A DNA stretch of 32,289 nucleotides, taken from positions 1 through 32,289 of the forward strand of contig JAHDWC010000022.1 of the NCBI GenBank assembly GCA_023382575.1. The letters are read 5' to 3'. The notes beneath the pieces were generated by a model. That model saw only the letters and a program-made list of their open reading frames with translations. It made no database searches and was not told the origin of the DNA. The DNA is from Anaerolineales bacterium. GTDB lineage: Bacteria > Chloroflexota > Anaerolineae > Anaerolineales > Villigracilaceae. Positions 2,454 through 17,956 of this stretch are shown here, piece by piece (position 1 is the stretch's first letter; each line of letters starts with the position of its first letter). The translations under genes and the position numbers were made by a program.

Positions 2454-5400
2454 CTACTTCACTGCACGGATGGCATGATTCCATGCGTTTCGATATTGCT
2501 CAATGGCGGCTTCCAGCCGTCCGTAGGTGGCGAGGCGGTCACCTCGTTCGAGGGCATCCTGCGCCCTGGCGATGTCTCGCGCACGCCCCGATTGAGCGAT
2601 GGCATCTTCAATAGCTATTTCAGCGAGTCTGCGATCCACCTTGACGAGGATGTCAATGTATTCCTGAATGGTTTCCTTGGGAAGCGAGGTGCGACGATCC
2701 CTCAGGATCCATGTCAGCGTATTGACGGCGTTCTTTTCCTCTTCAAAGACTTTGTGTCCGTGCCTCGGGTTGAGGTGATTATCGTCCTCCCACAGGAATG
2801 GATACAGGGCGCGAGTCAGATGCTTGATGGCATCGTTAAGTTTTTCGGCATCCCGTCGGTTCGTGACGGTCGAGCGCAGGGCGATCAGATCATCGAGTAC
2901 AGATTGTTTCGCTGGTCTGGGTGAGATGACGAGGTTCAAGCCCACGATGACCGGGTCGTGGTCAGAGGTGCGATAGGCGTTTGGCTCGTACAGCGGAAGC
3001 GTATCTGACTCTTCTTCGAATGCCGCTTCGCCATCGTTCCTCTCATCGTCGTTGTAATCGAAGAGCGGAATTTCGTCGGCGTTGATGTGCCACTCAGCCA
3101 CACCCGTCACTTGCGGATTGAGACTGGCATTGGCGAGCGCGTGGTCAAGATAGCCCAACTGACCGTCAAAGACGTAGCCGTATGCGCTTGGTCCGCCAAA
3201 GGCTGCGACAAGGTCAGTGTAGCCTGCATCCTGTAACGCGACGATTGGGGCTTCCTTGGCATAGGAGTTCAAGTCACCGATGATGAGCACGTCAGGGTCG
3301 CCGCTGTTGGTCGGGTCAGTTGACAGCCAGTTGGCAAGTTCCTGTGCCGCCAGCGTGCGGGTAAGTGTGCAGTTGCCCTGACCGGTGGTGGTATCGTCAT
3401 CGCCAGCACCACAGCCTGAGCCTTTGCTTTTCAAATGGTTGACGACCACGGTGAAACGTCCACCAGAGGCGATTTCTTCAAATGTCTGTGCCAGAGCTGG
3501 GCGGTTCCGGTCTGCATCCGCATTGCGTGGATTGACGAATGCTTGCGTATCCAGCACGGCGTAATTCCCAACCGGTTGGACGGTGGAAGTCTTGTAGATG
3601 ATTCCCACGCGGATGGCATCGCTGCCGATCACGCCGGTGTCAATGTAATCATAACCGGGCAAGCCAGCGACGATATCAGCCAGCGGCTCGACACCGGGTG
3701 AGTTTTCCATTTCCATCAAACCGACCACATCCGCATCGAGTTCAGATAGAGCCGCCAGCAGTTTGGTGCGCTGACGTTCCAATTCTTGTGCGCTGTCGGC
3801 GCCGCGGCAATCCATCGTGCCAGATGGCCCACAAATTCCAACATCATTGGAGGAGGTGGTATCGATGGTTAGGAAGTAATTGAGGACGTTGAAACTGGCG
3901 ACTTTCAGTCCTTGCACATCGGGGACACTCGAACGCAGGTTGACCGGCGTGAAGGCGTAGCTGTACGCTTCAGTCACCGGGCGGATGCGCCAGGCATCCG
4001 TGCCACTCTGTCCGGCGAACGACCAGTGCAGGACGCCGGTCAGGTTGGTGATGGTATCTCCGCCGCGGAAGAAGTTGCCCGTGCTGAGTCCCGGAACGGG
4101 ATGGTAATAATTTGTGTTCGGTGTATCCACGGGGCGGTTCTGACGATTATCCGCATCATCGAGGATGACGGTGCGGCTTGCAAGATGGATCTCATTATTG
4201 ATGAACCCCATCGCATCAGGCGTGTTGACTGCGGTGAAGGTATGCGGACGTCCGCCTTGGGTGAGGACCACCTGACCATACCGCGCCAGCTCAAAATACT
4301 CGCTGACCGAAAGCTCCGCCGGGAAAGTTACCAACATGCCTTCGGATTTTTCATAGTATGCATTGATGAAAGCCGTGGCGGCCGCCAGGTCACCGCTTGG
4401 GACGCCGGGAACAGGCAATGTGATGCTGGCAGGAGTGGGGAGCGGGTTGCCTGAACTGAGTACGACAACGTTGCCGGCTGTGGCCGCTGTCAGTTGGCTC
4501 ATTCCAAAGAATTCGCTCGAAGCACCTGTCACGCGCACCTTGTCACCGACGCTGACTGCGGTTGGACAATTGCTGCAGAAGACGAAGATGCCTTCGGAGG
4601 TCGCTGGGTCAGCATCAACATCCACATCTTCTTCTTGGATGAAGAATCCGCGCAACTGACCGCTGCTTTGAGTCTGGTAATCACCCACGACAATGGCTTC
4701 CACCGTGAAGGTTCCGGGCGCGGACGTATCGCCGCTGCCTTGAATGGCATGGATCGGCGTGATGGTTACAGCAACATCGTCATCGGTGATCGTGATCGAC
4801 GCGGCTGTATTGGCACCCAGCACATATCCCGCTCCGCTGGCGAGTGTCAGCGTCAGCGTTTCAGGTCCTTCGATATCGGTGTCATCCACGGGGGTGATGA
4901 GGATGTCAACAAATGCTTCACCAGCGGGGATCTCTACCGTGCCGCCCAATAAGGGAGTGTAATCTGCGGCGCTAGCGTTCCCGCTCAACGTGTAGTTCAC
5001 GGTCAGGGCGGAGGAAGTCTCTCCGGTGCGTGTGATGCGGAAGGTTCCAGTAGCGCTGCCAGCTTCGGCGGCGTCACCATCGGTCGCTTCAATCGTGACC
5101 GTGTTGCTGCTGGCTGTGATGGCTTCATTAAACGCGCCGGGGGTGTTGAGCGCTTCGCCCGCCACGGGTGTTCCGGTGAAACCGGGAATGCCCGCAAGGT
5201 CAAAGTCGTTGCGGACCCAATCGACAGTTGAGTCTGTATCCGTTCCATCCGGGATGCGCGATGCGCCGCCGGGTGCAAAGGCGGCACCATCGTAGGCAAC
5301 GCCCAGGGTGGTTGTGCCGTAGGTGATATCCCCTGTGCCGCCATCATTGACCGCTATCGAATCGACGAGGGCGTCCCACGGTGTTACGTCAAAGTTGCCA

Positions 5401-6317
5401 TCATCGTCGGTATCCAGGTCATTGCCGAGTGCGCCAGTGAAGTTTTTGACCAACAGCAGGGAAAGGCTTCCATTTTCCAACGCGTTTGCCGCCAAGTTGA
5501 TGAGTTGCAAGCCGTTGGCGTCGGTGGTGCCAAGACTGATGACTTCGTCAACGGTACCAATCACAGTGCCACTAATATCCCCTTCGATCTCAAGCAGGGT
5601 ATAGGCCGAGTAATCGGTATCGGGCGTGCCAAAAAATTCAACGAACTCAACATCGGTGCCAGTTGTGCTGGCAGAAAATTCATTGATGACCGGTTCGATG
5701 GGTCCGAGCGGTTCACAACTGGTGACATGAACTCCCAGCCCAGTGAACGTGTTCACGGCAGAACCATCCCACTCGATGGAGGGGTCGAAGGCATTTGAGC
5801 CATCTGGGTCGCCAGCGCAGACTTCCGCTTTGCGATTCAAGGTGTTGTCGGCTGTGCTGGTAGGGTCTGTTCCCCATTGGGAGCCAGGGTCCGTACCGAT
5901 TTGTCCGATAACATCGATGAAGTCTGTGCCTTTAACAAGAGCAACAGCGTCGTTGCCGTTGAACCAACTGGCAGTACTTGTTTGGTCAGCTTGGGCAAGG
6001 ATTTCTGCTACTGCAGAGGCATGGGCTACTACGTAGACATCTCCGGCAGTGACTGTACCGGTTAGAGCGAACGTGGTGCCTACTGATGAACTTCCGTTAG
6101 AAAACATTTGCACGCTGTATCCCCCAGCGGCGAGGTCGATATCATTTTCCGTTCCATTATAGATTTCGAGTGCTTTGTTATTACTGCTCCCCTCGATATA
6201 CTCAGAAAAAAACAGCTCTGTCGGCGGTGCAGCACTGACAGGCTGTAGGGGCATGATGGCGAGAGCCATTGCAAAAATGAGAAAGGTTGTGAAAAGTTTG
6301 TTCAGAGATCGAGCCAT
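2454..6317 (-). CDS. secreted ExeM/NucH-type endonuclease with lamin-tail, Calx-beta and endonuclease/phosphatase domains
   Basis: This 1287-residue protein has a Sec signal peptide (about 1-30, ending PVSAA). Two lamin-tail-like domains follow (about 33-200, starting LFFSEYIEGSSNNKALEIYN, and about 207-395, starting VINEFSAS). Then come a Calx-beta repeat (about 403-515), an OB-like YhcR/NucH region (about 519-625) and an endonuclease/exonuclease/phosphatase domain (about 803-1130). Active-site motifs visible are SFNVLNYF (N810), MEMEN (E869/E871), NHLKSKG (H961), GDLNSYA (D1015/N1017), YLDHAL (1056-1061) and SDHDPV (1118-1123), so the enzyme looks intact. Family members degrade extracellular DNA for nutrients or biofilm turnover. 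After the catalytic domain comes a charged all-helical tail of about 150 residues (1137-1287). It resembles FIMAH-type cell-surface tails but was not firmly recognised. The ATG at 6317 has AAGGAGA five bases upstream. Confidence 0.93.
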   Translation of the reverse strand: MARSLNKLFTTFLIFAMALAIMPLQPVSAAPPTELFFSEYIEGSSNNKALEIYNGTENDIDLAAGGYSVQMFSNGSSSVGTTFALTGTVTAGDVYVVAHASAVAEILAQADQTSTASWFNGNDAVALVKGTDFIDVIGQIGTDPGSQWGTDPTSTADNTLNRKAEVCAGDPDGSNAFDPSIEWDGSAVNTFTGLGVHVTSCEPLGPIEPVINEFSASTTGTDVEFVEFFGTPDTDYSAYTLLEIEGDISGTVIGTVDEVISLGTTDANGLQLINLAANALENGSLSLLLVKNFTGALGNDLDTDDDGNFDVTPWDALVDSIAVNDGGTGDITYGTTTLGVAYDGAAFAPGGASRIPDGTDTDSTVDWVRNDFDLAGIPGFTGTPVAGEALNTPGAFNEAITASSNTVTIEATDGDAAEAGSATGTFRITRTGETSSALTVNYTLSGNASAADYTPLLGGTVEIPAGEAFVDILITPVDDTDIEGPETLTLTLASGAGYVLGANTAASITITDDDVAVTITPIHAIQGSGDTSAPGTFTVEAIVVGDYQTQSSGQLRGFFIQEEDVDVDADPATSEGIFVFCSNCPTAVSVGDKVRVTGASSEFFGMSQLTAATAGNVVVLSSGNPLPTPASITLPVPGVPSGDLAAATAFINAYYEKSEGMLVTFPAELSVSEYFELARYGQVVLTQGGRPHTFTAVNTPDAMGFINNEIHLASRTVILDDADNRQNRPVDTPNTNYYHPVPGLSTGNFFRGGDTITNLTGVLHWSFAGQSGTDAWRIRPVTEAYSYAFTPVNLRSSVPDVQGLKVASFNVLNYFLTIDTTSSNDVGICGPSGTMDCRGADSAQELERQRTKLLAALSELDADVVGLMEMENSPGVEPLADIVAGLPGYDYIDTGVIGSDAIRVGIIYKTSTVQPVGNYAVLDTQAFVNPRNADADRNRPALAQTFEEIASGGRFTVVVNHLKSKGSGCGAGDDDTTTGQGNCTLTRTLAAQELANWLSTDPTNSGDPDVLIIGDLNSYAKEAPIVALQDAGYTDLVAAFGGPSAYGYVFDGQLGYLDHALANASLNPQVTGVAEWHINADEIPLFDYNDDERNDGEAAFEEESDTLPLYEPNAYRTSDHDPVIVGLNLVISPRPAKQSVLDDLIALRSTVTNRRDAEKLNDAIKHLTRALYPFLWEDDNHLNPRHGHKVFEEEKNAVNTLTWILRDRRTSLPKETIQEYIDILVKVDRRLAEIAIEDAIAQSGRARDIARAQDALERGDRLATYGRLEAAIEQYRNAWNHAIRAVK

Positions 6318-6485: not shown

Positions 6486-7295
6486 ATGGATAACCAAAAC
6501 AAACCCTTCTGGACACGTGACTCCTCCATCCTTCTCGGCGGATTCTTCGTCACCATTTTTCTTATTGTCTACATTTGGTGGCCGCTTGCCGAGGAATACC
6601 TCGCCTACGTCGATTGGAATGGCGCCTGGTGGCGTTACATTGACTGGTTGTTGTTGGGGGTCTTCTTCTTTATGTCCATTACTATTGTGGCACGCGCCAA
6701 TCTCAAAACCGATGTTTTGATCGTCTTTGTGGGCATCTTTGGCGGGTTGGCGATTGAATCCTGGGGCACGCAGACCAACCTGTGGCACTATTACACTGCC
6801 GAGCGTCCGCCTTTGTGGATCATCCCTGCCTGGCCCATTGCCAGCCTGTCCATTGACCGGATCACACGTTTTCTAAATTGGGGAATCGGACGGATCGAAA
6901 CGCGCACAGGCGAGCCGACCCATCGCTTCATCTTCTCCTCTCTTTATTGGGTGACCTTCGCCTCTTTTCTAACCCTGATGCTGGTCTTTGTTTCTCCAAC
7001 CTTCGACAAGTCCTATACCATTCTCGCCATCCTGTTGTGTGTGCTGCTCATCCTCACGCCAACGGACTATCGTCTCGCATTGCTGACCTTCATTGCCGGG
7101 GCGGGCTTGGGTTACTTTCTCGAATTGTGGGGGACGACCCGTCAGTGTTGGACGTATTACACGTTGGAGACGCCGCCGTTGTTTGCAGTCCTCGCCCATG
7201 GTATGGCGGCTGTCGCTTTCTGGCGGACGGGATTACTGGTAAAGATGGTCTTGGAAAAAGCCGGAAGCAGGCGCTTGGTGACAGACAGCGAATAA
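6486..7295 (+). CDS. unrecognised multi-spanning membrane protein with an internal duplicated motif
   Basis: I do not recognise this 269-residue protein as a named family. It has about seven hydrophobic segments (roughly 14-32, 51-69, 75-92, 109-120, 148-168, 176-193 and 196-212, plus a shorter one near 232-250). The striking feature is a 20-residue motif present twice exactly 122 residues apart (91-110 and 213-232), with pattern E-x-WGT-x4-W-x-YYT-x-E-x-PPL and 12 identical positions. Each copy sits at the end of a membrane helix after a Gly-rich stretch. This suggests an internal duplication that gives two equivalent half-sites. The E-x-x-GT part is faintly like CruF/DUF422 carotenoid hydratases, but that is only a resemblance. 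The gene stands alone between a divergent nuclease gene and a terminator. Confidence 0.85.
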   Translation: MDNQNKPFWTRDSSILLGGFFVTIFLIVYIWWPLAEEYLAYVDWNGAWWRYIDWLLLGVFFFMSITIVARANLKTDVLIVFVGIFGGLAIESWGTQTNLWHYYTAERPPLWIIPAWPIASLSIDRITRFLNWGIGRIETRTGEPTHRFIFSSLYWVTFASFLTLMLVFVSPTFDKSYTILAILLCVLLILTPTDYRLALLTFIAGAGLGYFLELWGTTRQCWTYYTLETPPLFAVLAHGMAAVAFWRTGLLVKMVLEKAGSRRLVTDSE

Positions 7296-7346: not shown

Positions 7347-7422
7347 ACTCAAGGGGCGAATCCGCTTTGGGGATCCGCATCAAGAAATGGTCAAGAAAGA
7401 GGCGAGAGGGATGTTCTACATC

Positions 7423-7450
7423 TTGACAGGTGGGCGAATTGTCCTATAAT
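7423..7450 (+). promoter_or_regulatory. strong sigma70-type promoter of the tetR-like gene
   Basis: Consensus TTGACA (7423-7428), a 16-bp spacer and consensus TATAAT (7445-7450) make this the best promoter in the window. Operator units begin at the very next base after the -10. Confidence 0.9.
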
Positions 7451-7498
7451 GTGACCAGTCGGTCATATGACTTACTGGTCATGTGACTCGGAGGTCAC
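7451..7498 (+). promoter_or_regulatory. three tandem 16-bp operator units, probable TetR autoregulatory site
   Basis: Three contiguous units at 7451-7466, 7467-7482 and 7483-7498 each fit RTGAC-N6-GTCAY, an inverted repeat, with exact 16-bp phasing and no gap. Short palindromes of the TGAC...GTCA type are common TetR-family operators. The array covers the transcription start and the leader, and its third unit contains the GGAGG ribosome binding site (7490-7494). Bound repressor would therefore block initiation directly. Confidence 0.8.
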
Positions 7499-7504
7499 AC
7501 TTTT

Positions 7505-8167
7505 ATGCCCAAACAAACCTTTTTGAATCTCCCCAAAGAAAAACACGACACAATCCTCAATGCGGCTATCGATGAGTTCGCGCAATATGGCTTGGAGAAC
7601 GCTTCGACGAACCGTATTGTGGCAAACAGCGGCATTTCGAAGGGAAGTTTCTATCAATATTTTGAAGACAAGCTGGATGTGTTCAAATATATACTCACGG
7701 TGTTGGAACACGAGAAGATTGTATTTTTCAAGGATACCCATCCGCCGAGTAGGAATATGGATACCTTTCAGTATTTCCGTTGGATGATCAAGACCGGCAT
7801 GGAATTCAACTCGTCGTATCCGCGCTTGGTGTATGCCATCAGTCGCGTTCTGCTGGGGGAGGGTTTGTATTACGGGCAGATGTTTGCAGAGAATCGCATC
7901 AAGGCGAACAAGGCGTTCGAGATGATGATCAAGCAAGCCATCGAGCGCGGCGAAGTGGACCCAAGTGTGGATGTGGACCTGGCTGTGATGATCATGGAAA
8001 CGTGGAGCAATGCCATCAGCACCTATATTCTGAACGAAGGCATGAAGCAGAAAGATATTATGAAGTGGGTGCGTTCGGCGAAGACACAGGAAAAAATAGA
8101 CAAGATGTTGTATGTCATGGAATATGGGCTGCGTAAAACGGAGTCCCAGTTCGTGGCAGGAATTTAA
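7505..8167 (+). CDS. TetR/AcrR-family transcriptional regulator
   Basis: This 220-residue protein is a typical length for the family. The N-terminal helix-turn-helix lies at about 13-60 (LNAAIDEFAQYGLENAS, then TNRIVANSGISKGSFYQYF with the usual G-S-F-Y-Q-Y-F recognition helix). The helical C-terminal part should bind an unknown ligand and form the dimer. The ATG at 7505 lies ten bases after GGAGG. A strong consensus promoter with three operator units sits immediately upstream, so negative autoregulation is very likely. The short-chain dehydrogenase gene starts ten bases downstream and probably shares the transcript. The ABC exporter genes follow after another 48 bases, so the regulator may control a detoxification and export unit; this last point is inference. 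Confidence 0.93.
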   Translation: MPKQTFLNLPKEKHDTILNAAIDEFAQYGLENASTNRIVANSGISKGSFYQYFEDKLDVFKYILTVLEHEKIVFFKDTHPPSRNMDTFQYFRWMIKTGMEFNSSYPRLVYAISRVLLGEGLYYGQMFAENRIKANKAFEMMIKQAIERGEVDPSVDVDLAVMIMETWSNAISTYILNEGMKQKDIMKWVRSAKTQEKIDKMLYVMEYGLRKTESQFVAGI

Positions 8168-9101: not shown

Positions 9102-10331
9102 ATGACCCTGTTCTTGCGACTCGCATGGCGTAATGTCTGGCGGCAGCGCCGTCGGACTCTCATCATTGCCATTGGCATGGGCGTCACCATGGCGCTGCTG
9201 GTGTTATACGATGGACTCATCGCCGGGTTTGAGCAAGCCATTTATGGCAACGCCATTCAATTATTGGGCGGCAACATCCAGGTCCACGCAGATGGGTATG
9301 GCGAGAAGGCAGGACGAAAACCCCTGCTGCCTTTGGAGAATCCCGATGCCATTGTGCAAGCCGCTGAAGCGCAGCCGAATGTGGTTGTCGCGGCGAAGCG
9401 CATCGTGACGGGTGGCTTGGTGACCAATCGCGAAGGCGCATTCTCAGTCTCGATTGTAGGCGTGGAAACCGACAAGGAGTCCCTTGTCAGCCCGGTGGCG
9501 CAGAATATTTCAACGGGTCGCTATTTGAACGCGGATGATGGCGACATGATCGTCATCGGTCAGGGGCTCGCCACGGCAATGGAGCTGGAAGTGGGTGACC
9601 GCGTCACAATGGTGGGCAACTCGAAACATGAGCAGACCCGTCAACGCACCATGACCATCGTCGGCATTTACGACGTAGGCGTCCCTTCGGTTGAGAAGAA
9701 CACCATCTATGTCTCACTTGCTGAGGCACAAAATCTCTTTGGTTTGGATGGTCAAGTAACTGAGATCGTCATCGCACTCGAGCAGATCGGTCAGGAACCC
9801 GGCGTGATGAATGCCATCAATCGGGCAGTGCCCGGCTACGAGGTCGAAAGTTGGGAGACCAGCATTCCCGATCTCAAACAAACCATGGAAATGAAAACAT
9901 CCGTGATGAGCGTCTTCGGTGTTGTCATGCTTGGGATTGCCGCCATCGGCATTCTAAATCTTTTGATGATGGCAGTCTTCGAACGGACTCGCGAGATCGG
10001 CATCATTGGCGCATTGGGATTGAAGCCGCGACAGATCACGCTTCTCTTTTTACTGGAAGGGATTCTCATTGGGATAATGGGTGCGGTTCTGGGAGCAATT
10101 CTCGGAACGGTTGTCAACATGGCGCTTGGATATTACGGCATCGACTACAGCGCCTTCGCAGACATGACCGAGTACACCGCCCTCATCAGCGGACGCATCT
10201 ATTCCCAACTTGTGCCGATGAAGGTCTTTCAACACGCGTTGACGGTGGCGATCATTGCCGCATTAGCGGCGCTGTATCCGGCGTTGGAAGCGTCTCGCCG
10301 CGAACCGGCGGAAGCGCTGCATTATGTCTAG
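9102..10331 (+). CDS. ABC transporter permease, FtsX/MacB type (first of pair)
   Basis: This 409-residue protein has the FtsX-fold plan: one N-terminal membrane helix (about 19-38), a large extracytoplasmic MacB-like periplasmic core domain (about 45-260), and three C-terminal helices (about 268-290, 313-340 and 377-395). The signature [20 protein letters not shown] at 293-312 is the cytoplasmic coupling segment of MacB/LolC-type permeases. The N-terminus LAWRNVWRQRRRT is typical. A good AGAAAGGA ribosome binding site precedes the ATG. The next permease starts nine bases after the stop. Such permeases use ATP to drive shape changes outside the membrane rather than pumping through it, and they export lipoproteins, peptides or drugs. 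Confidence 0.93.
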   Translation: MTLFLRLAWRNVWRQRRRTLIIAIGMGVTMALLVLYDGLIAGFEQAIYGNAIQLLGGNIQVHADGYGEKAGRKPLLPLENPDAIVQAAEAQPNVVVAAKRIVTGGLVTNREGAFSVSIVGVETDKESLVSPVAQNISTGRYLNADDGDMIVIGQGLATAMELEVGDRVTMVGNSKHEQTRQRTMTIVGIYDVGVPSVEKNTIYVSLAEAQNLFGLDGQVTEIVIALEQIGQEPGVMNAINRAVPGYEVESWETSIPDLKQTMEMKTSVMSVFGVVMLGIAAIGILNLLMMAVFERTREIGIIGALGLKPRQITLLFLLEGILIGIMGAVLGAILGTVVNMALGYYGIDYSAFADMTEYTALISGRIYSQLVPMKVFQHALTVAIIAALAALYPALEASRREPAEALHYV

Positions 10332-10340
10332 GAGCATCCA

Positions 10341-11561
10341 ATGACCAATTATTTCAAAATGGCATATCGCAATCTAGGCAGGCATCGTCGCCGCTCCTTC
10401 CTTTCGGCGCTGGCGCTTGCGATTGGAACTGCGTTACTGATGTTCATCGTAGCTTTCTTTGAAGGCGAGATGCGCAGCTCGATGGAAACCACCCTGCGCC
10501 TCGATAGCGGACATATCCAGATCCGCGATGCGGATTATGACCCCGATAAGCTCAGCGTCGCTTGGGAATATCTGATCGAAAATCCGGATCAGGCTGCGGC
10601 GCAGATCGAAGCGTTGGATCAGGTGCAGACTGCCACTCCACGTTTGATTGCAAGCGGCATCGTCTCCATCCGCGATGAATCGGCCGGAGTGCAGATCATG
10701 GGCATTGTCCCGGAGTCTGAGGCGAATGACCCGTATCGCAATGGACTCGTGGCGGGAAGTTTCCTCGCCGCCGATGATCGTGAAGGAATCCTGATCGGCT
10801 ATCCGCTGGCAGAAAGCTTGGCGCTGAATGTGGGCGATCAACTGACATTGTTGGTCAATACCTCTGATGGCGATGTGGATGAGCAGCAATTCACCGTGCG
10901 CGGAATCTTTACCACCGGCACGACCGCCTACGACAAAGGCATCGTCTTCCTACCGCTCGCCAAGGCGCAATCGTTTTCCGGCGCGGAGAATCGTGCCAGC
11001 ATGATCTTCATTTTGTTGAAGGATCGTGAAATGGCAGATGAAGTCGCCGCGGCGATTCAGGGCAGCGGCTATCAGGTCAAGACATGGAGCGAGTTGAATG
11101 AACTGCTCGTGCTCATCAATGACTTTTCGAATGCTTATATCTTTATCCTGAATTTGATCGTATTAGGCGTGACGGCGACTGTGATCGTCAACACCTTGCT
11201 GATGTCGGTATTTGAACGCACGCGCGAAATTGGCATCCTGACCGCCATCGGTATGAAGGGACGGCAGATCATCACGCTCTTCCTGGTGGAAGCGAGTTTG
11301 TTGGCTTTGGGCGGAATCGCCTTTGGCTCGTTGCTCGGCTGGGCGTTGTCTGCTTACTTTGGAAGTGTTGGTGTCTACTTTGGTGACCTGGGAATTAGCC
11401 AGGGAATGCTGTTGGAAGATCGCATCTATCCCTACCTGACGCTTTCCGCTGCTCTCAACCTAATGATCACAGCCTTCATTATCACAGTCCTTGCCTCAAT
11501 TTATCCGGCGCGATTGGCCTCCCGCATGGAACCGGTCGAAGCCTTGCATGGCGCGAACTAA
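10341..11561 (+). CDS. ABC transporter permease, FtsX/MacB type (second of pair)
   Basis: This 406-residue paralogue of the preceding gene has the same layout: N-terminal helix (about 20-40), extracytoplasmic domain (about 45-262) and three C-terminal helices (about 268-290, 310-338 and 372-392). The coupling motif [20 protein letters not shown] lies at 291-310. Sequence identity with the first permease is moderate and highest around this motif and in the C-terminus (EPVEALH against EPAEALH), so the two probably form a heterodimer served by the following ATPase. The start is preceded by TAGGAG. The gap to the ATPase gene is 11 bases and holds a strong AAGGAGAAA site. Confidence 0.93.
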
Positions 11562-11572
11562 GGAGAAATATC

Positions 11573-12256
11573 ATGGAAGTCGCAAAATTAACGAACGTCA
11601 CTCGTGTGTACAAGATCGGTGAAGTGGAAACCCGCGCCTTGAACGGCGTCAGTCTCACCATCAACAGCGGCGAATTTACCTCACTGGTGGGTCCCTCCGG
11701 CTCTGGCAAAACGACTCTCTTGCAACTCATCGGCTGTCTTGACCAGCCTACATCTGGCAGCGTAGCCATCAATGGAAAAGAAACGACGAACCTGAATCGC
11801 AATCAACGCGCAGACTTACGCAAAGGCACAATCGGATTTGTCTTTCAATTTTTCGCGCTCATCCCAACTCTTACCGCATATGAGAATGTGGAAATGCCGC
11901 TTCTGCTGAACGGAAAGAGTCCAGTAGAACGCAAGCAGCGCGTGATGGAATTGCTCGAAGGGGTGGATTTAACCGACCGCGCGCATCATCGTCCCGATCA
12001 GTTGAGCGGCGGACAACAACAACGCGTCGCTGTTGCCCGGGCATTAGCCACCAACCCGACCATGATTCTTGCCGACGAACCCACTGCCAATCTCGATACT
12101 ACCAATGGAGAGCAGGTGATGGAAATCATGAAGCGCCTCAACGAAAAGACTGGCACAACCTTCGTCTTTGCCACACATGATCCGCGCGTTATCAAGTATG
12201 CCACTCGCGTAGTCACCTTGCAGGATGGTCTGATCGTGAAGGATTCCAAAGGATAA
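11573..12256 (+). CDS. ABC transporter ATP-binding protein, LolD/MacB type
   Basis: This 227-residue ATPase has all the catalytic motifs: Walker A GPSGSGKT (40-47), Q-loop Gln at 92 in VFQFFALIP, signature LSGGQ (144-148), Walker B MILADEP (164-170) and switch His at 202 in FATHDPR. The FQFF...[14 protein letters not shown] stretch and the length match the MacB/LolD (MJ0796) subfamily, which pairs with FtsX-fold permeases. It closes the permease operon. A new promoter follows for the adaptor genes. Confidence 0.96.
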
Positions 12257-12276
12257 ATCAATCCTTGATAAAACCT

Positions 12277-12304
12277 TTGCAAAACCTGTACAACCTGTTA
12301 TAAT
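12277..12304 (+). promoter_or_regulatory. promoter of the adaptor pair
   Basis: TTGCAA (12277-12282), a 16-bp spacer and a perfect TATAAT (12299-12304) lie 38 bases before the ATG at 12343. The site falls in the only real gap within the transport locus, so adaptor expression can be separate from that of the permease operon. Confidence 0.75.
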
Positions 12305-12318
12305 GTATATGTATAACA
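12296..12318. promoter_or_regulatory. inverted repeat over the -10 of the adaptor promoter
   Basis: TGTTATA (12296-12302) and TATAACA (12312-12318) form perfect 7-bp arms around a 9-base centre, overlapping the -10 box and the likely start of transcription. Upstream, AACCTGT occurs twice, at 12283-12289 and 12292-12298. This is a candidate operator; the binding protein is unknown. Confidence 0.4.
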
Positions 12319-12342
12319 GACAGGATTTGGAGAACAGATAGA

Positions 12343-13152
12343 ATGAAAAAAGTTATTTGGGTACTGGTTAGTTTGGCAGCGTTGGCATTATCCGCTTGTG
12401 GCGGGGCAGGTACAACCGAGGCAATTCCCACTGTGATGCTCGACGAGGGAAACTCCAGCGCTCCGGCGCAGAACGCTTCCAGCGGCGATGCAGTCTCCGC
12501 CTCAGCAATCGTTGTCCCGTTGCAAGATGCGAACTTGTCTTTCACCAGCATTGGGCGCGTGACTGCGGTCAACGTGCAGGTGGGGGATCAGGTCGAAGCG
12601 GGTGATGTGTTGGTTGAGTTGGACACGTCAGTTTTGGAGGCGAGGGTCAGAGAGGCAGAAGCGAATCTCGCGGCGGCTGAAATTCAGGTCAAGTATTTGA
12701 AGCGTGTTGGCACCACCGAACAACATTTGGAAGTGGCAGAGAATGACGTGGCGCGCGCGCAGGCCTTGGTCGATTCCGCGAATGCTGTGCTGGCCGCTCA
12801 AACGCATCTGACCGCGCCGATAGCGGGTACGGTTGTTGCTGTGGAGATTGCCCCCGCTGAGACCGTCTCGCCGGGACAGATCGTAGTGACCCTCGGCGAC
12901 TTATCGCGTTACCGCATCGAAACCACCGATTTGAGCGAACGAGACGTGACCCGTGTGCGCGTGGGACAATCGGCTACGGTGTTCATCGAAGCCTTGGGTG
13001 AAGAGTTCACCGGCCAGGTCGTGGATGTGGCTCGCATTGCTTCGCAGCTTGGCGGTGATGTGGTCTATGCTGTGACGATTGAATTAGATGAACAACCGGC
13101 AGGTTTACTCTGGGGCATGAGCGCGGATGTCGAGATCAGCGTGGGCGAGTGA
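12343..13152 (+). CDS. HlyD/MacA-like adaptor lipoprotein (first of tandem pair)
   Basis: This 269-residue protein has a lipoprotein signal (hydrophobic 4-16, lipobox LSAC with Cys19), so it is anchored to the outer face of the membrane. A biotinyl-lipoyl-like half-domain (about 68-95, GRVTAVNVQVGDQVEAGDVL) is followed by a helical hairpin (about 97-152). The second lipoyl half is at about 154-185 (LTAPIAGTVVAVEIAPAETV), and a beta-barrel at about 190-267 ends in GLLWGMSADVEI. This is the membrane-fusion-protein plan used with MacB-type ABC proteins. The hairpin is short, which fits an organism where no outer-membrane channel has to be reached. The C-terminal third is about two-thirds identical to the next gene. 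GGAGA lies upstream of the ATG. Confidence 0.92.
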   Translation: MKKVIWVLVSLAALALSACGGAGTTEAIPTVMLDEGNSSAPAQNASSGDAVSASAIVVPLQDANLSFTSIGRVTAVNVQVGDQVEAGDVLVELDTSVLEARVREAEANLAAAEIQVKYLKRVGTTEQHLEVAENDVARAQALVDSANAVLAAQTHLTAPIAGTVVAVEIAPAETVSPGQIVVTLGDLSRYRIETTDLSERDVTRVRVGQSATVFIEALGEEFTGQVVDVARIASQLGGDVVYAVTIELDEQPAGLLWGMSADVEISVGE

Positions 13153-13159
13153 GGCTGGC

Positions 13160-13984
13160 ATGAGACAATTTCTTTTGTCGCTGTTCGGACTGCTCCTACT
13201 GACGGCGTGCGCCAGCCCGGCGCCTGTCGCTTCTGCGCCGACAACGGCTCCAGTGGAAGAAGCTGCTTTGGCTTCGCCCGATGCGGTTATCGCTTCAGCG
13301 GATGTCGAACCAGCACAGATCGTCGAGTTGGGTTTCACCATCTCGGCATTGGTGAAGGAGATTCCCATCCGCGAAGGAGATGTAGTGGAAGCCGGTCAAA
13401 CCTTGATGGTGCTGGATACGCCTGAACTGGATTATGCCGTCGTTGCCGCTGAAAATGATTACAACGCGCGCGCGCTTGCTGCGCAATTGCAAAAAGCGGA
13501 GAAGGTCCTTTATATCAATCCCGATACTGGCTTCCGACGTTGGTACGCCATTCCACGTGAGGTGTACGAGAAGGCTCTATCCCAGGCGGATCAATCCAAA
13601 GCCGTGTGGGATTCCGCACTGGCGACCCTCAAACAAGGGACAGTGGTCGCTCCCTTTGCAGGGACTGTGGTGGACTTGGGTGTGATTCCCGGCGAATTGG
13701 TGCAGGTCAATCAGCCTGTGCTGGTCCTCGCAGATTTGAAGAATCTGCAAATCACCACCACCGACTTGAGCGAGCGTGACATTGCCCGCGTGAAGATTGG
13801 GCAGAGTGCGAATGTGTACATTGAAGCGTTGGATAAGACCATCACCGGCAAGGTGATTCGCATCTCGCCTATCGCTGAAACGGTCGGTGGCGATGTGGTC
13901 TTCCCGGTCACCATCGAATTGGATGAACAACCTGAAGGCCTGCTTTGGGGCATGAGCGCCGAAGTTGAAATTCAAACCCAGTAA
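13160..13984 (+). CDS. HlyD/MacA-like adaptor lipoprotein (second of tandem pair)
   Basis: The start chosen is the ATG at 13160, giving 274 residues. It follows the previous stop by seven bases, has GTGAGG upstream, and puts a clean lipoprotein signal (lipobox LTAC, Cys17) at the N-terminus. An earlier in-frame ATG at 13127 lies inside the previous gene. Domain order is the same as in the first adaptor: lipoyl half (about 58-87), helical segment (about 90-157) containing a Tyr/Trp-rich insert near INPDTGFRRWYA (119-130), lipoyl half (about 160-190) and barrel (about 196-272). The barrel shares TTDLSERD, GGDVV, VTIELDEQP and GLLWGMSA with its neighbour. The pair probably arose by tandem duplication and may form mixed rings on the permease dimer. 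Confidence 0.92.
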   Translation: MRQFLLSLFGLLLLTACASPAPVASAPTTAPVEEAALASPDAVIASADVEPAQIVELGFTISALVKEIPIREGDVVEAGQTLMVLDTPELDYAVVAAENDYNARALAAQLQKAEKVLYINPDTGFRRWYAIPREVYEKALSQADQSKAVWDSALATLKQGTVVAPFAGTVVDLGVIPGELVQVNQPVLVLADLKNLQITTTDLSERDIARVKIGQSANVYIEALDKTITGKVIRISPIAETVGGDVVFPVTIELDEQPEGLLWGMSAEVEIQTQ

Positions 13985-15754: not shown

Positions 15755-16780
15755 ATGTATATCTGCGTACTAACAAGCACTCCGGATGAGAACGATATTC
15801 CGTACGATCCATCACCGTACATGAAGGGATATCGCTGGAAGCAGCATCATGTGGAGCCCACCAATGTTGAAAAGCAGATCAAGGCTCTAATGGATGAAGG
15901 TGTGGATGCCTTCGTCAATTTATGTGACGGCACTCCCGATGATGCGCTGTCTGGTATCGCCTTGGTTAAAGCACTTGAAAAATATAATGCCGCCTTCACT
16001 GGCGCGGATTCAAAATTCTTCGACCCCACTCGCGATGAAATGAAGAACGCTGCCAAACGGGTCAACGTTCCCACCCCCAGTTGGATCTTCGTCAATCGTG
16101 CCGAAGATGCGGAGAAGGTCGCCAAACGCCTCAAGTTTCCCATGCTGGTCAAGCCGCCGCATGGATACGCCAGCGTCGGTATCCGTCGTAATTCACGCGT
16201 TGAGAACATCGAACAACTCCGCGAACAATTACAGCTAGAGATCAATGAGTTCGGACGTGCACTGGTCGAAGAGTTCATCGAAGGACGCGAGTTCACCTGT
16301 CTCATCGCGGAGAATACCGAAAATCCCGATAAGCCTTTCACCTATACCCCGGTGGAATTCATCTTCCCTGATGGTGAATCTTTCAAGCATTACGACATGA
16401 AATGGGTTGACTACGAGAGAATGTCGGTTGCCGTAGTGTCTGACCCGCGCATCAACAAAGTGCTGCGTGAACAAACTATTCGTGTCTTCAAGGAATTGGG
16501 CGGAAACGGCTATGCCCGCTGTGATTATCGCATGGATGCCGATGGCACCATTCACATGCTCGAGATCAACCCCAACTGCGGTATCTTCTATCCCCCACAC
16601 GAACCTGGCTCCGCCGATTTCTCACTGCTCAACGACCCGACTACCAATCATTCCAAGTTCATGAAGTTGATCATCCGCAACGCGCAATTTCGCCAGACGC
16701 GCATCGCTGCCGAACGTATCATCAAACGCCAACAGCGCAAACGCGAACGCGTGCCGGTCGAACAGATGGCTTACACCTAA
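15755..16780 (+). CDS. ATP-grasp enzyme, D-alanine-D-alanine-ligase-like, substrate unknown
   Basis: I start this 341-residue protein at the ATG at 15755, which follows AAGGAAA (15744-15750). A TTG 45 bases earlier is in frame but has no ribosome binding site. The fold is that of carboxylate-amine/thiol ligases: an N-terminal preATP-grasp domain (about 1-95), and an ATP-binding lysine and loop in LVKPPHGYASVG (131-142). EEFIEGREF (172-180), YARCDYRM (253-260) and the metal-binding HMLEINPNCG (267-276) complete the site. The E-x-N-x-N motif is intact, so it should be active. True Ddl enzymes are usually in cell-wall contexts and have different substrate loops; this one stands alone. The C-terminus is strongly basic (about 313-333). 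A role in peptide or modified amino acid synthesis is possible but unproven. Confidence 0.88.
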   Translation: MYICVLTSTPDENDIPYDPSPYMKGYRWKQHHVEPTNVEKQIKALMDEGVDAFVNLCDGTPDDALSGIALVKALEKYNAAFTGADSKFFDPTRDEMKNAAKRVNVPTPSWIFVNRAEDAEKVAKRLKFPMLVKPPHGYASVGIRRNSRVENIEQLREQLQLEINEFGRALVEEFIEGREFTCLIAENTENPDKPFTYTPVEFIFPDGESFKHYDMKWVDYERMSVAVVSDPRINKVLREQTIRVFKELGGNGYARCDYRMDADGTIHMLEINPNCGIFYPPHEPGSADFSLLNDPTTNHSKFMKLIIRNAQFRQTRIAAERIIKRQQRKRERVPVEQMAYT

Positions 16781-16782
16781 CG

Positions 16783-16815
16783 AAAACGGGACACAGAAAT
16801 GTGTCCCGTTTTTTT
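16783..16815. terminator. bidirectional terminator between the ATP-grasp and galK genes
   Basis: A perfect 13-bp stem (16783-16795 with 16800-16812) is closed by a GAAA tetraloop and followed by T bases on the plus strand. Four A bases begin the stem, giving a T run on the minus strand. The distal end touches the galK stop codon (16814-16816). Confidence 0.9.
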
Positions 16816-17956
16816 ATCCCTGAACGATGCTTGCTCCCTCACTGGCTTTGCAAACATACACACTCGCCTCCAACCCAGAACTTTGCTTGTAAGCCATCGA
16901 GACAGCTTGAGTAAACGCTTCAGCCTCTTCCTCATTGACCAGTGCCACTGCACAACCGCCAAAACCTGCTCCGGTCATGCGAGCGCCATAACAACTGGAT
17001 TGCTCTCGCGCGCATGCGACCATGATATTGAGCGCATCATTGGTCACTTCGAAATCATCGCGCAGACTATCATGACTGGCGTTGAACAGTTCTCCCAGCC
17101 GTTTGATATTCCCATTTCTCATCGCTTGAATCGCTTCCAGTACCCGTGCATTTTCCGTCACGATATGACGCGCACGTTGGAACGCCACTTCATTTAAATC
17201 ACTTTGCGGATTCCATTTTCCAAGGTCTTCCACATTGACATCCCGCAGCGCCCTCACCCCAAACCAGCGCGCCGCTTCCTCACATTGACTTCGCCGCTCG
17301 TTGTACGCGGAATCGACCAGTCCGCGCCGGGTGGATGTATCGAGAATGACGATGGAAATCCCTTTTGGCAGGGGAGCATGTTGAATTTCGAGCGAGCGGC
17401 AATCCAGGAACAAAGCATGACCTTCTTTGCAAGCCGCGCTTGCCATTTGATCCATGATGCCGCAATTGACGCCCACCCAATCGTTCTCCGCTTTTTGGGC
17501 GATCTTTGCCATGTTAACCGCATCCCATTCAATATTGGAAATGGCAGCGAAGGCACGTGCTACGGCCAACTCTACGGCAGCGGATGAGGACAGCCCGGCT
17601 CCACGCGGGACATCGCCGGTCATGACCGCGTCGAATCCGCGCAGTGAGTAGCCACTCTTCATCAATTGATAGGCAATCCCTTTGGGATATTCGATCCAGT
17701 CCGACTCACGGGTGAGGGAAGTTAGCAGAAAACCCGCTTCAACTTTCAGGTCCAGAGAAAAGATGCGCACTTGTTCATCATCACGCGGACTTAATGCCAT
17801 CCAAACGCTGTGATCGATAGCCATGGGCAGGACAAATCCATCGTTGTAGTCGGTGTGTTCGCCGATCAAATTTACTCGCCCCGGTGCGCGGACGATTAAA
17901 TTCGGTTTGGCGTTAAAATAGGTTTCAAATGATTGGATGAGTGAGGCGGTGTTCAT
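16814..17956 (-). CDS. galK: galactokinase
   Basis: This GHMP kinase phosphorylates galactose to galactose 1-phosphate at the entry of the Leloir pathway. Starting at the ATG at 17956 gives 380 residues, close to the family norm. The frame is open to 18097 but that extension covers the divergent gene. The galactokinase signature APGRVNLIGEHTDYNDG is at 24-40, the GHMP ATP loop RGAGLSSSAA at 118-127, the catalytic Asp in CGIMDQM at about D169, and the third motif MTGAGFGG at 327-334. It converges on the ATP-grasp gene and is divergent from the Vps62-like gene with 26 bases between starts. galT and galE are not in the window. A TATAAA box lies seven bases before the ATG, with no Shine-Dalgarno. 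Confidence 0.96.
   Translation of the reverse strand: MNTASLIQSFETYFNAKPNLIVRAPGRVNLIGEHTDYNDGFVLPMAIDHSVWMALSPRDDEQVRIFSLDLKVEAGFLLTSLTRESDWIEYPKGIAYQLMKSGYSLRGFDAVMTGDVPRGAGLSSSAAVELAVARAFAAISNIEWDAVNMAKIAQKAENDWVGVNCGIMDQMASAACKEGHALFLDCRSLEIQHAPLPKGISIVILDTSTRRGLVDSAYNERRSQCEEAARWFGVRALRDVNVEDLGKWNPQSDLNEVAFQRARHIVTENARVLEAIQAMRNGNIKRLGELFNASHDSLRDDFEVTNDALNIMVACAREQSSCYGARMTGAGFGGCAVALVNEEEAEAFTQAVSMAYKQSSGLEASVYVCKASEGASIVQG

Follow-up and report, generated by a model that had tools for sequence, protein, structure and literature searches.

The DNA analysed here (the window) is a stretch of 32,289 nucleotides from a bacterium of the order Anaerolineales (Chloroflexota). The features considered in this study are the following:

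6486..7295, + strand: gene of a 269-aa membrane protein with two homologous halves of four predicted helices each (open reading frame and translation, 80 orthologues, AlphaFold2 helix layout, purifying selection)
6678..6899, + strand: repeat unit 1, residues 65-138 (hhalign of the halves)
7044..7265, + strand: repeat unit 2, residues 187-260 (hhalign of the halves)
6756..6815, + strand: motif copy 1, ESWGTQTNLWHYYTAERPPL, residues 91-110 (translation, conservation)
7122..7181, + strand: motif copy 2, ELWGTTRQCWTYYTLETPPL, residues 213-232 (translation, conservation)
7505..8167, + strand: TetR-type regulator gene, context (Pfam PF00440)
9102..13981, + strand: MacB-type exporter cluster (two FtsX/MacB_PCD permeases, an ABC ATPase and two HlyD proteins), context (Pfam)

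Downstream of the gene of the 269-aa protein, the order is TetR regulator, short-chain dehydrogenase and MacB-type exporter cluster. On the other side, at 2454-6317 on the minus strand, lies the gene of a 1287-aa protein with a signal-like N-terminus, which by eye appears to be a secreted nuclease with Calx-beta-like repeats; in about 15 loci its homologues likewise occupy this side. When the neighbours were searched by tblastn in 86 loci, FtsX/ABC homologues were present near the gene in 52-53 of them and TetR homologues in 39, while in three loci (L077, L078 and L080) the exporter cluster lies on the upstream side of the gene instead. Because many loci are without the cluster (some of them since the contig ends), proximity to the exporter may reflect mere shared synteny. 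No lipid enzyme was found among the conserved gene neighbours.

A previous sequence-only reading of this DNA had described a membrane protein with two motif copies sharing 12 of 20 positions at an offset of 122 residues, and had suggested a duplicated half that would form a pseudo-symmetric active or binding site. The membrane protein, the motif copies and the duplication were borne out, while a common cavity or active site for the two Glu/Trp sets is only a possibility. In a self-comparison of the 269-aa protein, the pair 91-110/213-232 (ESWGTQTNLWHYYTAERPPL versus ELWGTTRQCWTYYTLETPPL) was the top 20-residue match, with 12/20 identical positions at offset 122, a value equalled in one of 2000 composition shuffles. 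When the N-half and C-half profiles were aligned with hhalign, residues 65-138 paired with 187-260 in 74 columns without a gap (E-value 3.7e-9); with divergent relatives included the E-value was 2.8e-13, and that of the reversed-sequence control 0.42. A chance likeness of the two motifs is ruled out by these results, and the true repeat is longer than the two 20-residue motifs, extending over 74 columns per half. The motif shared by both units is E-x-W-G-T-x4-W-x-Y-Y-T-x3-P-P, located between helices 3 and 4.

A scan of 84,980 genomes yielded 165 relatives, the best 80 of which, nearly all from Anaerolineae or Chloroflexi and with 63-86% identity within the best segment, were used as the orthologue set. 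Both motif copies are conserved throughout the 80 orthologues, and loss of either copy was seen in none. Residues E91, W93, G94, T95, W100, Y102, T104, E106, P108 and P109 are invariant in copy 1, and E213, W215, G216, T217, W222, Y224, Y225, P230 and P231 in copy 2; Y103 and T226 are almost invariant, and the variable positions are L110, L232 and the second-copy E228 (E/Q). Comparison with L002 gave 39, 23 and 127 differences at codon positions 1, 2 and 3, respectively, and in close pairs changes at third positions outnumber those at second positions four- to sixfold. The gene is therefore under purifying selection, considering that third-position changes far exceed second-position changes.

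In a phylum-wide sampling, the gene was found in 16 of 301 genomes, all within the source's own family (16 of the 18 genomes sampled there), and class-wide sampling revealed it in five more families (f8, f10, f124, f125 and f128). Whole genomes that were searched usually carry one copy, and the searches located the gene in Anaerolineae (Chloroflexota) only. A phage or plasmid origin was also considered and rejected, since a search of viral contigs and plasmids returned no relatives.

Three relatives (L164, L165 and L166), each from a different genome within a single further family of Anaerolineae, matched the full profile (E 8e-25 to 2e-22), though the match was split in two and its parts stood in reverse order. 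Their first half aligns to the C-terminal part of the profile, starting at 131 or 178 and ending near 258; their second half aligns to profile positions about 33-141. In all six cases the expected half profile beat the other half profile by 8-17 bits; the half-domain tree gave no resolution of the swapped halves as N-like or C-like, so that the swap is favoured by bit scores alone. The occurrence of the halves in swapped order implies that the half is a real modular unit. The swapped order is explained either by circular permutation, or by an extra duplication after which the outer halves were lost.

The linker between the halves of these proteins (about residues 130-162 of L165, within L165:985-1872) is NADKNNLSAFVRVNPRP, and its DNA is an interspersed repeat with many copies, on both strands, in G401, G436 and other genomes. 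The repeat element is inserted in frame in the coding sequence, and its position is the same in the three genomes. Their neighbourhoods (by eye purA and purB, with an FAD-dependent oxidoreductase in two of the three) provided no clear functional clue. In addition, a possible single-half membrane protein of 142 aa, with E-x8-W-x-Y...P at the same spacing, is encoded in genome G011 (L206:1381-1806, + strand); its profile score was borderline (0.077 among 9160 ORFs), and its gene is divergent from one that by eye resembles a UbiA-type prenyltransferase.

Searches of Pfam, NCBIfam, PHROGs and PDB sequences with the 269-aa protein gave no significant matches. The protein thus matches no named family, as had been supposed, the curated cut-offs being reached by none; a straightforward assignment to CruF, lycopene cyclase, DUF2878, DUF817 or Insig can be discarded, all of these being below their curated cut-offs or without a match. 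PF04240 (CruF; cut-off 25 bits) was unmatched by the 269-aa protein at E up to 10 and was absent from the families reported for 52 orthologues. The full-length profile showed no significant match to CruF in an initial comparison (P 0.075), and hhalign with the CruF N-half gave an E-value of 0.0017 (reversed control 0.069). The lycopene cyclase domain (PF18916/TIGR03462) did not match the 269-aa protein, half-profile hhalign being no better than the reversed control level, and was found below threshold in L206 only (0.023).

DUF2878 (PF11086) was matched by seven of 23 half-domains (best 9e-4), and by the N-half of the 269-aa protein at 0.027 and 15.2 bits (cut-off 27 bits; profile 31-97 of 154). 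DUF817 (PF05675, cut-off 25.9 bits) was matched over profile positions 30-104 by the swapped relative L164 (4e-4, 20.7 bits) and by the single-half protein L206 (0.012), with no match to the 269-aa protein. Insig gave no sequence match in Pfam, and Insig chains were absent among the PDB sequence matches; the half-domain profile also retrieved nothing relevant from the PDB sequences. QcrA_N, which appeared for 17 of 52 members (best 0.028), was rejected as not significant. The sub-threshold matches to CruF, DUF2878, DUF817 and the lycopene cyclase domain point one way, and none confers membership on the 269-aa protein.

The AlphaFold2 model of the protein, built with 52 orthologues, has a pLDDT of 77.9 and a pTM of 0.79. 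Helices are predicted at 54-68, 73-93, 96-104 and 112-141 in the first half, and at 176-190, 195-215, 217-226 and 232-266 in the second, which is almost the half-1 layout moved by 122. Each motif follows helix 3 of its half, and this placement agrees with the earlier suggestion that the motifs would lie at membrane boundaries. The motif stretches are the lowest-confidence part of the model (pLDDT 52-68), and the positive-inside loop count gave a signal too weak to fix the membrane orientation.

A Foldseek search of the model against the PDB and viral models returned no significant match, with PnuC among the rows listed. In a finer structural comparison, the top ranks were taken by five Insig chains, with Z-scores of 5.4-6.4 over 133-158 residues spanning helices 3 to 8: MvINS 4xu6 (Z 6.4, 149 aligned, 5.7 A), 4xu4 (Z 6.3), 6m49 (Z 6.0), 7etw and 9pxb (both 5.4, where a mitoribosome chain ties). 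It should be noted that a Z-score of 6.4 is modest, being under 8 and below the level safe for helical bundles, and is weak when taken alone. For comparison, a CruF-family (PF04240) protein of a related genome was modelled separately (pLDDT 92.3), and its best matches were the same MvINS entries, with Z-scores of 8.5 and 8.4 (136 aligned, 3.0 A; next row 6.1). The stretch aligned to MvINS begins at residue 69 of the 269-aa protein and at residue 65 of the CruF protein, so that in each case the first motif Glu (E91 and E87, respectively) comes 22 residues later; because only the ends of the aligned ranges are reported, this agreement in register can be taken as suggestive only. The lead to CruF/DUF422 offered by the sequence-only reading thus received modest support from the half-profile alignment and from the common best structural neighbour MvINS, whereas membership in PF04240 did not hold. 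The fold is probably of the CruF/lycopene-cyclase/Insig-like class, the helix layout and the Insig/CruF-like shape being those of the model.

The most likely function of this unnamed family would be to modify or bind a membrane lipid, isoprenoid or other, between a pair of equivalent acidic sites. A more specific proposal, which we put forward tentatively and with less than even confidence, is an eight-helix duplicated protein of CruF/lycopene-cyclase/Insig-like fold, in which a lipid held between the halves is acted on by two Glu residues. The protein, with eight predicted helices, arose by duplication of a four-helix unit and has one motif per unit; the even number of helices per unit suggests that the halves would be parallel, which would place the two motifs at one and the same face of the membrane. 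The bundle may enclose an internal lipid pocket, where a long isoprenoid or other lipid would sit between the two halves, the two Glu would act on it as a general acid/base pair, and the Trp/Tyr residues might shape or stabilise the site. Such an acid/base pair has been proposed for carotenoid hydratases and cyclases. The 269-aa protein is probably an enzyme, and the reaction would be protonation of a double bond within a long lipid molecule.

The motif likeness to CruF, and the presence in the source genome of a phytoene synthase, a lycopene-cyclase-domain protein and a PF04240 protein, could suggest a carotenoid-pathway enzyme proper, with C40/C30 carotenoids as the substrates of a divergent CruF or lycopene cyclase. 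This appears very unlikely, however, considering that PF00494 (phytoene/squalene synthase) is absent from eight of the 22 gene-bearing genomes (six of these eight are 97-99% complete), PF00494 being present, by contrast, in the two family-f1 genomes from which the gene is missing, and that no carotenoid genes are near the gene in the loci read. The absence of PF00494 from eight bearing genomes makes a carotenoid-only role unlikely, and a C40 carotenoid is probably not what the protein acts on. The best structural neighbours being Insig chains, the protein might otherwise be a non-catalytic, Insig-like sensor or partner, which would bind a lipid and regulate or assist another membrane protein, perhaps the neighbouring exporter; the frequent proximity to the TetR/MacB-type cluster, kept on the other side in L077, L078 and L080, would fit such a role. 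Nevertheless, many loci have no exporter beside the gene, the Insig Z-score is modest and the Insig match of the CruF model is higher, and the strict conservation of the paired Glu, Trp and Tyr fits an active site, so that we regard a sensor as unlikely. The fold itself does not separate sensor from enzyme, because the model of CruF, an enzyme family, matches Insig better still.

Duplicated helix units are common in transporters, and structural Z-scores below 8, with no significant Foldseek match and PnuC among the rows listed, could also be read in terms of a transporter or channel of unrelated fold, whose 4+4 repeat would form the translocation path and whose resemblance to Insig and CruF would be that of a generic helical bundle. 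This too seems unlikely, since one small Insig group is picked out by both of the separately made models, in which the Glu has a corresponding position, and the sub-threshold sequence matches cluster on half-unit families of one kind.

As for the carotenoid genes of the source genome (G000), contig C35 (L213) encodes a phytoene synthase at 7367-8116 and, at about 16248-17066, a two-domain protein of the lycopene-cyclase type, beside a protein that resembles a cytochrome P450. A divergent PF04240 protein (E 5e-11) is encoded at C50:20916-21368 on the minus strand (L214:6683-7537). Three genomes that are 97-99% complete (G046, G080 and G064) contain strong PF04240 proteins (E 1e-42 to 3e-44) without a phytoene/squalene synthase. 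Therefore, 'carotenoid biosynthesis protein' may be too broad a label in Chloroflexota, and co-occurrence with carotenoid genes may not strictly define PF04240.

A broader and rather doubtful scenario would derive single-unit proteins, CruF/lycopene-cyclase enzymes, Insig-like sensors and the duplicated family of Anaerolineae from one ancestral acidic-aromatic four-helix unit. The last of these would represent the least-changed duplication, with equal motifs and both half orders (a natural circular permutation), and would act on a non-carotenoid membrane lipid. What is new here are the half-swapped relatives, MvINS as the best solved match of both models, and the sub-threshold half-domain matches to DUF2878, DUF817 and CruF. 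A link of CruF/DUF422 or MvINS to such a shared shape was not found in a partial literature search, and no claim of priority is made. The family is a highly conserved one without assignment in a large and mostly uncultured class; it hints at novel lipid chemistry or lipid sensing in Anaerolineae, and the repeat, the half-swapped relatives and the Insig/CruF-like shape provide a testable idea relating carotenoid-modifying enzymes to Insig sterol sensors.

Among known systems, CruF (PF04240, formerly DUF422; carotenoid hydratase class) resembles the 269-aa protein in its motif (ESVGVLTGLVYGPYHYT resembles ESWGTQTNLWHYYT), and for both models the best solved match is MvINS, the Glu being equidistant from the aligned start. 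The CruF invariants are E..G...G...G.Y.Y...P...P..W in the first half and D....P...W.W...P..N...W in the second. The first half of the 269-aa protein follows this pattern in part only (E, G, Y, P), without the invariant G-x-Y-x-Y; in the second half, CruF has D...P...W-x-W...P-x-x-N, whereas the 269-aa protein has the E...W-x-YY motif in both halves. Moreover, its gene occurs without carotenoid synthesis genes.

DUF2878 differs in its single-unit size, and the C-half of the 269-aa protein gives no match to it. In Aeromonas, a cyclopropane fatty acid synthase gene shares a predicted operon with DUF2878 (PMC10012899).

The lycopene cyclase domain (PF18916, TIGR03462; CrtYcd type) has paired half-size units as well, and its D-x8-W compares with E-x8-W here, with the acidic residue and W-x-Y at about the same spacing, followed by P; its P-x-E-E motif, in contrast, is absent from the 269-aa protein. 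A pattern of helix, acidic residue, W/Y and P is common to CruF and the lycopene cyclase domain. The likeness to Insig, represented by the mycobacterial homologue MvINS (4xu4, 4xu6) and mammalian Insig-2, is structural and lies in the top five matches of the model, the 269-aa protein differing in two additional N-terminal helices.
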